Shown: in pieces, positions 1 through 42,939 of the stretch
How the letters are laid out: every line of letters begins with the position of its first letter
Numbering within the stretch: position 1 is the first letter of the stretch
NCBI GenBank assembly: GCA_024742695.1
Contig: JANSXY010000013.1
Coordinates: 1 to 64,000 of the forward strand
Reading direction: 5' to 3'
Length of the DNA: 64,000 nt
Source: Paracoccaceae bacterium
Lineage (GTDB): Bacteria > Pseudomonadota > Alphaproteobacteria > Rhodobacterales > Rhodobacteraceae
The notes under the pieces: generated by a model
What the model was told of the DNA's origin: nothing
Database searches by the model: none
The model's input: only the letters and a program-made list of their open reading frames with translations
Translations under genes and position numbers: made by a program

Positions 1-2033
1 CCGCGGCCGAGGCCGCCGCGTCGCGCGTCGCCACCAAGGGCGTGGCCGTCAGCCCGCGTGGCAAGGCCGATCGCGGCCGCGACGACCGCGCCGGCGATCG
101 CGACCGCGCCGGCAAGGGCCGCGGCGAGGATGGCCGCCGGTCCGGCAAGCTGACCCTGACCGAGGCGCTTTCGGGCGAGGGCGGGCGGCAGCGCTCGCTC
201 GCGGCGATGAAGCGCAAGCAGGAACGTGCCCGGCAGAAGGCCATGGGCATGGGCGGCCGGTCGGAAAAGCAGGTGCGCGACGTGCAGCTGCCCGAAACGA
301 TCGTGGTGCAGGAACTGGCCAACCGGATGGCCGAACGCGCCGCCGATGTCGTCAAGGCGCTGATGAAGATGGGCATGATGGTCACGATGAACCAGACCAT
401 CGACGCCGACACCGCCGAACTGGTGATCGAGGAATTCGGCCACCGCGCGGTGCGCGTGTCGGATGCCGACGTGGAACAGGTCATCGACACGGTCGACGAC
501 AAGCCCGAAGACATGCAGCCGCGCCCGCCGATCATCACGATCATGGGCCATGTCGACCACGGCAAGACCTCGCTTCTGGATGCGATCCGCAAGGCCAATG
601 TCGTGGCCGGCGAGGCCGGTGGGATCACCCAGCATATTGGCGCCTACCAGGTCACGACGGAATCGGGTGCGGTGCTGACCTTCCTCGACACGCCGGGCCA
701 CGCGGCCTTCACCTCGATGCGGGCGCGCGGCGCGCAGGTCACCGACATCGTGGTTCTGGTGGTTGCCGCCGACGACGCGGTGATGCCGCAGACGGTGGAG
801 GCGATCAATCACGCCAAGGCCGCCGGGGTGCCGATGATCGTGGCGATCAACAAGTGCGACAAGCCCGATGCGACGCCGGACAAGGTGCGCACCGATCTGC
901 TGCAGCACGAGGTCGTCGTGGAAAAGATGTCGGGCGAGGTGCTCGATGTCGAGGTTTCGGCGCTGACCGGCAAGGGGCTTGACGAGCTTCTGGAAAACAT
1001 CGCGCTACAGGCCGAACTGCTCGATCTCAAGGCCAACCCGAAGCGCGCCGCGATGGGCGCGGTGATCGAGGCCAAGCTGGATATCGGCCGCGGCCCGGTC
1101 GCCACCGTCCTGGTGCAGCACGGCACGCTGAAGCAGGGCGACGTGTTCGTCGTCGGCGAGCAGTGGGGCAAGGTGCGCGCGCTGATCAACGACAAGGGCG
1201 ATCGCGTGTCCGATGCCGGCCCCTCGGTTCCGGTCGAGGTGCTGGGCCTGAACGGGACGCCGGAGGCCGGCGACGTGCTGAACGTTGTCGAGACCGAGGC
1301 GCAGGCCCGCGAGATCGCCGACTATCGCGCCAAGGCCGCCCGCGACAAGCGCGCCGCGGCGGGTGCGGCGGCAACGCTGGAACAGCTGATGGCCAAGGCC
1401 AAGGCCGATGCAAGCGTGAGCGAACTGCCGGTTCTGGTGAAGGCCGACGTGCAGGGTTCTGCCGAGGCGATCACCCAGGCGCTCGAGAAGGTCGGCAACG
1501 ACGAGGTGCGTGTCCGGGTGCTGCATTCCGGCGTCGGCGCGATCACCGAATCCGACATCGGCCTTGCGGAAGCCTCGCAGGCGCCGGTCATCGGCTTCAA
1601 CGTCCGTGCCAATGCGCCGGCCCGCAACGCGGCGAACCAGAAGGGCGTGGAAATCCGCTACTACAGCGTGATCTACGACCTCGTGGACGACGTGAAGAAG
1701 GCGGCCGAGGGCCTGCTTTCGGCCGAGGTGCGCGAAACCTTCATCGGCTATGCCGAGATCAAGGAGGTCTTCAAGGTCTCCGGTGTCGGCAAGGTCGCGG
1801 GCTGCCTTGTCACCGAAGGCGTGGCGCGCCGGTCGGCGGGCGTGCGGCTTCTGCGCGACAACGTGGTGATCCACGAAGGGACGCTGAAGACGCTCAAGCG
1901 TTTCAAGGACGAGGTGAAGGAAGTCACCTCGGGCCAGGAATGCGGCATGGCCTTCGAGAACTACGAAGACATCCGTCCGGGCGACGTGATCGAGATCTTC
2001 GAACGCGAGGAAGTGCAGCGCAAGCTGGACTGA
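1..2033 (+). CDS. infB: Translation initiation factor IF-2 (3' part; 5' end outside window)
   Basis: GTPase that delivers initiator fMet-tRNA to the 30S subunit and promotes subunit joining. The reading frame is open from the first bases of the window, so the N-terminus lies upstream; the GTG at position 42 is an internal codon, not a start. The G domain is complete: the P-loop GHVDHGKT is encoded near 545-568, followed by DTPGHAAF (G3) and NKCD (G4). The C-terminal half has the EF-Tu-like beta-barrels and the fMet-tRNA-binding domain ending in [10 protein letters not shown]. The Arg/Asp/Gly-rich stretch before the G domain belongs to the variable N-terminal region. A perfect hairpin follows the stop codon. 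Identity is certain; only the true start is unknown. Confidence 0.97.
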
Positions 2034-2070
2034 GGCGATACGCCTCGGGATCGTCAGGGATACTGGCTAC

Positions 2071-2094
2071 GAAGGCCGCCGTCAGGCGGCCTTC
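2071..2094. terminator. Perfect 10-bp hairpin between convergent genes
   Basis: GAAGGCCGCC (2071-2080) pairs perfectly with GGCGGCCTTC (2085-2094) around a GTCA loop. It lies 38 bases after the infB stop codon and contains the stop codon of the small minus-strand gene in its loop (2082-2084). No T-run follows on the plus strand. A bidirectional terminator or 3'-end stabiliser is the simplest reading. Confidence 0.6.
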
Positions 2095-2219
2095 GGCCCG
2101 ACGGGGGCGCCGGCATATTCCGTCTGGCCGACGCGCACCACGATCTTGCCGCCCGGCAGGCCGCGCACGAAGATCCCCTGAACCATGACGCAGCTGCCCT
2201 GCATGATCGTCTTCAACAT
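2082..2219 (-). CDS. Small hypothetical protein, 45 residues
   Basis: The frame stays open further upstream, but ATG at 2219 is preceded by an excellent ribosome-binding site (GGGAGGAAAAAC on the minus strand), so the product is read as 45 residues beginning MLKTIMQGSC. The protein has one Cys, a hydrophobic start and a short beta-rich middle (KIVVRVGQTEYAG). I assign no function. A sigma-70-like promoter can be placed about 90 bases upstream, so the gene appears monocistronic. It is convergent with infB and its stop codon sits inside the shared hairpin. The strong RBS, promoter and terminator argue for a real gene despite its size. Confidence 0.65.
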   Translation of the reverse strand: MLKTIMQGSCVMVQGIFVRGLPGGKIVVRVGQTEYAGAPVGPKAA

Positions 2220-2306
2220 CGTTTTTCCTCCCGCGCGCCGGTCGCCTTGGCCCTGAGCCCCTGTTGCCGGATGCTTCGTGAGCCTGCCGTTGCGCTTCTG
2301 CACAAT

Positions 2307-2336
2307 TTTAGACGTCTCGCGGACACGATTCGGCAA
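2307..2336 (-). promoter_or_regulatory. Candidate sigma-70 promoter for the 45-residue gene
   Basis: On the minus strand a TTGCCG -35 (2336-2331) and a TCTAAA -10 (2312-2307) are separated by 18 bases. It lies in a locally AT-rich stretch (about 2300-2345), unusual for this GC-rich sequence. Placement is by eye. Confidence 0.4.
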
Positions 2337-2414
2337 CAATAAAGTCACGAATGAAACGGAATCGCGGAAATCCGCCGATGAACGGGCCCCGATTTCACGT
2401 CATTTGGACATGAT

Positions 2415-2834
2415 TCAGAGCCAATCGCGCAGGATCGGTATCAAGGGGATGTCGGCCGGCGGCATCGGATAGCGTGCCAGATCGGCGGCGCGGGACCAGG
2501 CCAGCTCCTGGCCTTCGCGCGGGGTGATGATTCCCTGCCAGCGGCGGCAGGCGAAAAGCGGCATCAGAAGGTGGAAAGTGTCGTAGCCATGGCTGGCGAA
2601 GGTCAGCGGCGCGAGGCACGATTCCCAGGTGTCGATCCCCAGTTCCTCGTGCAGTTCGCGGATCAGCGCCGACTCGGGCGTTTCGCCGGGTTCGACCTTA
2701 CCGCCCGGAAACTCCCACAGCCCGGCCATCGACTTGCCCGGCGGCCGGCGCGCCAGCAGCACCCGGCCCTCGCCGTCGATCAGTGCGACCGCGGCGACGA
2801 GAACCACGGGTTTGCCGCCCGTGGCATCGGTCAC
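2415..2834 (-). CDS. mutT: Nudix hydrolase, 8-oxo-dGTP diphosphatase type
   Basis: Hydrolyses oxidised nucleoside triphosphates such as 8-oxo-dGTP to prevent mutagenic incorporation. The 139-residue protein has a complete Nudix box at about residues 44-66 (GG-x5-E-x7-RELHEELGI), preceded by LARRPPGKSMAGLWEFPG, which is typical of MutT proper. The length matches the family. Its ATG overlaps the argJ stop by four bases (ATGA), so the two are translationally coupled. The argJ-mutT pairing is common in Rhodobacterales. A more general Nudix substrate cannot be excluded from sequence alone. Confidence 0.9.
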   Translation of the reverse strand: MTDATGGKPVVLVAAVALIDGEGRVLLARRPPGKSMAGLWEFPGGKVEPGETPESALIRELHEELGIDTWESCLAPLTFASHGYDTFHLLMPLFACRRWQGIITPREGQELAWSRAADLARYPMPPADIPLIPILRDWL

Positions 2835-10390: not shown

Positions 10391-12304
<1,914 letters not shown>

Positions 12305-40282: not shown

Positions 40283-40349
40283 CACGCACCGCGGAATCGT
40301 CCCGGCGCGGGCCGCTTGACCCCGCGGGGCGCGCATGGTTCCTCGCCTC

Positions 40350-41108
40350 ATGGCACGGAAGACGACACCAGCGAAACGGCGCAAGACGGCCTCGAAGGCG
40401 GGGGCGAGACCCGCGGCCGGGCGGTGGTTCGGCTGGCCGGGGCTGGCGGCGATCCGGCGCTGGCTGTTGCGCGGGGCGCTGGGGCTGGTGGCCCTCGTCC
40501 TCGCCTGGGTGCTGGCCTATGCCGTCGTCAATCCGCCGGTCACGCCCTACATGCTGGCCGAGCGGATGCGGCACGGCCCGCTGGCGCGCGACTGGGTGCC
40601 GATCGAGGCGATGGCCCCGGTCCTGCCGCGCGCGGTCGTGGCGGCGGAGGATGCCAATTTCTGCCTGCACTGGGGCTTCGACATGGCCGCGATCCGCGCC
40701 GCGGTGGCCGAGGGCGGCACCCGCGGCGCATCGACCCTGACGCAGCAGACCGTCAAGAACGCGTTCCTGTGGCACGGGCGAAGCTGGCCCCGCAAGGCGG
40801 CCGAGGCGCTTCTCACCCCGGTGGTGGAGGTGGCCTGGCCGAAACGGCGGATCCTGGAAATCTATCTCAACATCGCGGAATTCGATACCGGCGTGTTCGG
40901 CGTCGAGGCCGCGGCGCGGCGCTATTTCGAGACATCGGCAGCCGATCTGACGCCCGCGCAGGCCGCGCGGCTCGCCGCGCTGCTGCCCGATCCGAAGGGC
41001 CGCGACGCGGCGCGGCCCAGCGATTTCGTGCGGAACCGCGCCGCGGCGATCCTCGATGGCGCGGCGACGATCGCCGCCGACGGCCGGGACGACTGCTTTG
41101 CGGATTGA
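40350..41108 (+). CDS. mtgA: Monofunctional biosynthetic peptidoglycan transglycosylase
   Basis: Polymerises lipid II glycan strands (GT51). The product is about 252 residues from ATG 40350 (MARKTT); an ATG five codons upstream at 40335 is equally possible, and neither has a clear RBS. A Lys/Arg-rich cytoplasmic tail precedes one membrane anchor (LLRGALGLVALVLAWVLAYAVV). GT51 motifs follow: EDANFCLHWGFD with catalytic Glu, RGASTLTQQTVKNAFL, and KRRILEIYLNIAEF. No transpeptidase domain is present. Confidence 0.92.
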   Translation: MARKTTPAKRRKTASKAGARPAAGRWFGWPGLAAIRRWLLRGALGLVALVLAWVLAYAVVNPPVTPYMLAERMRHGPLARDWVPIEAMAPVLPRAVVAAEDANFCLHWGFDMAAIRAAVAEGGTRGASTLTQQTVKNAFLWHGRSWPRKAAEALLTPVVEVAWPKRRILEIYLNIAEFDTGVFGVEAAARRYFETSAADLTPAQAARLAALLPDPKGRDAARPSDFVRNRAAAILDGAATIAADGRDDCFAD

Positions 41109-41165: not shown

Positions 41166-41831
41166 ATGAACCGCCTCTACCATGTTCCCCTGTCCCCGTT
41201 CTGCCGCAAGGTGCGCCTGACCCTGGCGGAATAGCGGATCGAGGTGGAACTGGTCGAGGAACGCTACTGGGAGCAAAGCCCCGAGTTCCTGCGCCGCAAC
41301 CCCGCCGGCAAGGTGCCGATCCTGCGGATGGAACAGCGCGTGATGTCCGAAAGCCAGGCGATCTGCGAATATCTCGACGAGGTCGCGCCGGAACCGCCGC
41401 TGATGCCGCGCGGCCCCGACGCGCGCTACGAGGTGCGCCGGCTTTGCGCGTGGTTCGACGACAAGTTCCATGCCGAGGTGACCTCGAAGCTCTTGTACGA
41501 GCGGGTCAACAAGAAGCTGGCCAAGGCCGGCTATCCGGATTCGAAGAACGTGAAATCCGGCGCGGGGCGGATCAAGTACCACCTCGACTACATGGCCTGG
41601 CTGCTGGAACACCGCCGCTGGCTGGCCGGCGACGTGATGACGCTGGCGGATTTCGCCGCGGCGGCGCATCTGTCGGCGCTGGACTACATCTCGGATGTCG
41701 ACTGGAACCGGTCCGCCGCGGTCAAGGACTGGTACGCCAAGATCAAGTCGCGCCCGGCGTTCCGGTCGATCCTGGCCGACCAGGTGCCCGGTTTCCCGCC
41801 GCCGCCGCATTACGCGGACCTGGATTTCTGA
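41166..41831 (+). pseudogene. Glutathione S-transferase gene with an in-frame amber stop
   Basis: Reading from ATG 41166 gives MNRLYHVPLSPFCRKVRLTLAE, a TAG at 41232-41234, then RIEVELVEERYWEQSPEFLR and a normal GST through ADLDF at 41831 (221 codons). The thioredoxin-like N-terminal motif SPFCRK precedes the stop, and the rest, including ESQAICEYLDE and the helical C-terminal domain, is intact. Homologues usually have a Lys at this spot, so one AAG-to-TAG change would explain it. Restart at GTG 41244 would lose the catalytic beta-alpha unit. Either a very recent pseudogene or a sequencing error. Confidence 0.85.
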
Positions 41832-41901: not shown

Positions 41902-42939
41902 TTGTCTGCCGATCTGAAGGCACGGATGGAGGCGCGGGCGCGGGCCGAGGGCTTCGCGGGGATGGGCGTTTGCCGGCCGGAGGCGATCGGGGACGCGGGC
42001 GCGCGGCTGGCGGCGTTCCTGGCCAAAGGCCGGCACGGGCAGATGGGCTGGATGGCCGAGCGCGCGGGCTGGCGCGCCGATCCGCGCGCGATGTGGCCCG
42101 AGGTGCGGAGCATCGTGATGCTGGCCGAGGCCTATACGCCGGATTTCGATCCGCTGGCGCTGCTGGAGCGGCGCGACCGCGCCGCGATCAGCGCCTATGC
42201 CCGTGGCCGGGACTACCACGACCTGGTGAAGAAGCGGCTGAAACGGCTGGGGCGCTGGCTGATCGACGCGGCGGGCGGCGAGATCAAGGTGTTCGTCGAT
42301 ACCGCGCCGGTGATGGAGAAGCCGCTGGCCGAGGCCGCCGGGCTGGGCTGGCAGGGCAAGCACACCAATCTTCTGGGCCGCGACCTGGGCAACTGGATCT
42401 TTCTGGGCGCGATCTTCACCACGCTCGATTTGCCGGCGGACGCGCCGGAGGAGCAGCGTTGCGGCACGTGCACCGCTTGCCTCGACATCTGCCCGACGCG
42501 GGCCTTTCCGGCGCCCTATCAGCTGGATGCGACGCGCTGCATTTCCTACCTGACGATCGAGCATCGCGGGCCGGTGGACGCAGGGCTGCGGCCGCTGATG
42601 GGCAACCGGATCTACGGGTGCGACGACTGCCTTGCGGTCTGCCCCTGGAACAAGTTCGCGGTGGCCGCGCGCGAGGCGGGCTATGCCGATCGGGTGGGGG
42701 AGCCGCCGCTGGCGGAGCTGGCCGGGCTGGACGACGCCGGGTTCCGGGCGCGGTTTTCCGGGTCTCCGATCAAGCGGATCGGGCGCGACCGGTTCGTCCG
42801 CAACGTCTGCTACGCGATCGGGAATTCCGGCCTGCCGGCGCTTCTGCCCGCCGTCCGCGCGCTTGTCGGCGATCCCGATCCGGCGGTGGCCGACGCCGCG
42901 CGCTGGGCGGTGGACCGCCTGTCGGGCGCGACACCCTAG
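41902..42939 (+). CDS. queG: Epoxyqueuosine reductase
   Basis: Cobalamin-dependent enzyme performing the last step of queuosine synthesis on tRNA. No in-frame ATG lies where homologues begin; TTG 41902 has GGAG upstream (41893-41896) and gives [10 protein letters not shown] at the N-terminus, 345 residues. ATG 41926 would truncate by eight residues. Cobalamin-site [26 protein letters not shown] and the two [4Fe-4S] motifs [13 protein letters not shown] and [11 protein letters not shown] are intact. The C-terminal HEAT-like part ([24 protein letters not shown]) is short, typical for the family. Confidence 0.93.

Follow-up and report, generated by a model that had tools for sequence, protein, structure and literature searches.

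Why does the draft genome of an alphaproteobacterium of the Rhodobacteraceae type show a stop codon near the start of its only copy of a cell division gene, in a reading frame that is otherwise perfect? The case arises in the window, the whole stretch of 64,000 nucleotides analyzed here, which comprises bases 1 to 64000 of the 94,987 bases of contig C52. The genome amounts to 4.16 Mb in 67 contigs and is rated 99.7% complete; its named relatives by sequence belong to Rhodobacteraceae-type genera, e.g., Rhodobacter, Gemmobacter, Pseudotabrizicola, and Ruegeria.

The interrupted frame and its surroundings

Translation of the forward strand from 41166 to 41831 yielded one frame of 221 residue positions with a single internal stop. 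It reads MNRLYHVPLSPFCRKVRLTLAE, TAG at codon 23, and then 198 more residues up to HYADLDF and the terminal TGA (41829 to 41831). A six-frame search of the genome flagged the same interruption as "1 TAG" inside the match. Since continuous, family-conserved coding sequence flanks the TAG on either side, the interrupted frame itself is no product of chance. The features of the locus are as follows.

40335 to 41108, forward strand: mtgA, monofunctional peptidoglycan transglycosylase, intact upstream neighbor (TIGR02070)
41166 to 41831, forward strand: fzlA, FtsZ-binding GST-fold division protein, interrupted at codon 23; 221 codons plus TGA (NF050814, 335 bits; PDB 5nr1, E 2.7e-64)
41166 to 41231, forward strand: first 22 codons (MNRLYHVPLSPFCRKVRLTLAE), conserved, remaining after normal termination at TAG (L4, H6, L9 to P11, C13 to L18, and E22 invariant)
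41232 to 41234, forward strand: in-frame amber codon TAG, codon 23; Lys in 109 of 109 relatives (translation and relatives' codons)
41244 to 41831, forward strand: largest open frame downstream of TAG, GTG start, 195 amino acids; possible restart product without residues 1 to 26 (290 bits, against an FzlA cut-off of 300)
41902 to 42939, forward strand: queG, tRNA epoxyqueuosine reductase, intact downstream neighbor, inferred TTG start (TIGR00276, 416 bits)

The gene order mtgA-fzlA-queG is conserved among relatives. With some contigs cut, mtgA precedes fzlA on its own strand in 98 of the 109 loci from relatives, and queG follows it, again on that strand, in 85 of them.

Family and expected function of the product

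Judged from its sequence, the interrupted frame is fzlA, a single-copy division gene encoding a protein of the GST fold. The translated product, with codon 23 entered as X, scored 335 bits over residues 2 to 221 against the NCBIfam equivalog NF050814 (FtsZBindFzlA), above the cut-off of 300, whereas GstA, MaiA, SspA, and similar curated models scored far under their own cut-offs. The original prediction of a glutathione S-transferase was therefore right about the fold, as reflected in the Pfam domains GST_N and GST_C that the protein has in common with canonical bacterial GSTs, but not about the family, which is FzlA by NF050814. Among solved structures, the three best sequence matches include Caulobacter FzlA (5nr1, E 2.7e-64) and 4mdc, a Sinorhizobium meliloti FzlA homolog (PMC5760450). 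A second fzlA copy is absent from the genome, the next GST being 28% identical and reaching 55 bits versus 505. A structure predicted from a shallow alignment gave a poor model (pLDDT 46) and was set aside.

In Caulobacter, FzlA is essential and influences both how FtsZ filaments curve and how fast the cell constricts; it does not bind glutathione, and the C-terminal tail residues Y223, D227, and F228 are needed (PMC5760450). These three align with Y216, D220, and F221 in the window's protein. The two proteins belong to the same equivalog family and align over their full length, and the residues corresponding to W38, E119, and P131 of the Caulobacter protein are likewise retained, whereas D109, E122, R124, L136, R137, R140, E141, and R144 are replaced by H, N, K, V, K, A, G, and K, respectively. 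The window's copy further differs from Caulobacter FzlA, and fails to show the uninterrupted frame of this family, in that codon 23 is TAG in the assembly. By analogy with Caulobacter, the product would bind and curve FtsZ filaments and be needed for constriction, and fzlA is probably essential in the window's lineage. The finding concerns a division gene, rather than a dispensable detoxification enzyme. As this gene has no second copy here and is essential in Caulobacter, a lineage that lives on with it inactivated would be much less likely than one that has lost a dispensable GST.

Conservation among relatives and decoding of UAG

Codon 23 encodes Lys in all 109 relatives (AAG in 91, AAA in 18), just as had been expected of homologs from the window's sequence, and an internal stop in fzlA occurred in none of the 109. 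The relatives' frame comprises 221 codons in 107 cases and 220 in one, and in one it meets no stop within the available DNA. The further expectation that the rest of the 221-codon frame is preserved was also borne out. At the 115 columns with at least 95% conservation, codon 23 aside, the window's protein departs from none and the median relative from 1. When the window's fzlA was paired with those of its 25 nearest relatives, the median dN/dS came to 0.157, near the top of the interval from 0.092 to 0.161 that the relatives themselves span. The TAG is neither common to relatives nor old, and fzlA shows no decay. An old pseudogene, i.e., an FzlA that was lost and is decaying, would account for one disabling codon; it is contradicted by the lack of any further disabling change, by the 115 unaltered columns, and by a dN/dS within the relatives' range, and we consider it highly improbable.

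A survey of the family detected FzlA in 381 of 395 genomes, and in 344 of the 348 whose quality is good; the copy in the window's genome was the sole interrupted one among the matches listed. Four family genomes (G017, G092, G314, and G330), 97 to 100% complete, gave no FzlA match at E 1e-50, reflecting either assembly gaps or true loss of a gene that is essential in Caulobacter.

Equal conservation on either side of the stop and the expected need for fzlA would be consistent with programmed or suppressor-tRNA readthrough, in which UAG at codon 23 is routinely decoded to yield full-length FzlA, perhaps setting its level. An in-frame UAG within an otherwise conserved gene is also what characterizes natural amber readthrough and pyrrolysine genes. 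In contrast to these, the window's UAG is not conserved: relatives sharing the TAG, which had been named beforehand as the sign of functional readthrough, numbered 0 of 109, with none among the matches listed in the survey. Release factor 1 is intact in the genome, and TAG works as an ordinary stop, because it terminates 25 of the 146 long ORFs in the 0.73 Mb scanned; amber codon reassignment was rejected on both counts. An incomplete search of the draft, combining Rfam and pattern searches, found no CTA-anticodon tRNA among about 41 tRNA genes, and stops inside coding sequence in the scanned 0.73 Mb included no second convincing internal amber. Conserved or programmed readthrough of codon 23 is thus unsupported, and its occurrence appears highly improbable.

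The same searches yielded several minor observations. Of 30 other stops that have coding sequence before and after them, almost all mark ordinary boundaries within operons, where a start codon follows closely. On contig C28, a sulfatase-like frame (606 to 2478, reverse strand) with TGA at 1141 runs into a LysR-like fragment near the contig end; with the families named by eye, it resembles either a gene that has been rearranged and has decayed or a junction created in assembly. An unusual tRNA-Tyr (gta) on contig C6, at about 11066 to 11149 on the forward strand, was missed by the Rfam tRNA search but recovered by pattern search and ARAGORN; no other Tyr tRNA was seen in the genome. The assembly yielded neither an Ile(gat) nor an Ala(tgc) tRNA, as expected if rRNA operons fall in assembly gaps.

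Origin of the amber codon

The original prediction had offered recent death of the gene, readthrough, or a wrong base. This was the right set of options, albeit with a weighting that changes now that readthrough fails and a wrong base leads. Recent death would mean that a nonsense mutation truly exists in the sequenced strain or in part of its population and arose very recently. The cell would survive because UAG decoding is leaky, because translation restarts at GTG 41244, because a suppressor escaped notice, or because this lineage can dispense with fzlA. A young mutation is expected to leave the frame otherwise perfect, as observed, and the GTG sits three codons beyond the TAG. Moreover, hyperactive FtsW makes FzlA dispensable in Caulobacter, where the FtsW substitution A246T permits fzlA loss (PMC8262945), and the four good-quality family genomes lacking an FzlA match agree with dispensability. 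This bypass residue is absent from the window's genome, however: the position equivalent to A246, which we located via TtRodA A227 in Table 1 of PMC8078798, is Ala and not Thr. No own-specific changes were found at conserved FtsW columns except for one C-terminal tail residue, and FtsI on contig C3 looks ordinary by inspection. Restart would cost the predicted product 26 conserved N-terminal residues; with its 290 bits it remains under the FzlA cut-off, and it would be unlikely to fold normally. In addition, no CTA tRNA was found among the approximately 41 tRNAs in the incomplete search. On balance, we regard a recent nonsense mutation as a possibility to be taken seriously, though one we lean against.

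Should the TAG be not only real but fixed, the species would live with an interrupted fzlA because UAG is read through efficiently, because translation restarts at GTG 41244, or because its division has become independent of FzlA with a bypass other than A246T; we consider this improbable. FzlA goes unmentioned in the main texts of two papers on Rhodobacter sphaeroides. A real TAG would offer a natural example of an alphaproteobacterium dividing either in the absence of normal FzlA or with FzlA translated across a stop codon, and the requirement for FzlA would become testable outside Caulobacter.

Given that the testable biological escape routes are all negative or unsupported, we infer that a wrong base at codon 23 is the leading explanation. 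With a probability of roughly 60%, the TAG at 41232 to 41234 reflects one base that was called or assembled wrongly in this draft of 67 contigs. The living organism, a Rhodobacteraceae-type alphaproteobacterium, most likely does not carry the amber codon, or does not carry it in fixed form, and its sole fzlA copy would be ordinary and intact. Several observations speak against an error: the site is no obvious error hotspot, the quality of the genome is good in other respects at 99.7% completeness, and four well-scored family genomes are without FzlA at E 1e-50, the essentiality in the family being assumed by analogy. In this genome, 2.6% of coding substitutions create a stop, and 64% of those create TAG. 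A draft with a single error that creates a stop is nothing unusual: under our assumption that bases are wrong at a rate of 1e-6 to 1e-5, each genome would be expected to contain 0.1 to 1 such errors. If the base is indeed wrong, the locus calls for caution, as a single base makes a needed gene appear lost: fzlA is hidden from annotation because the remaining open frame, at 290 bits, falls below the cut-off of 300.
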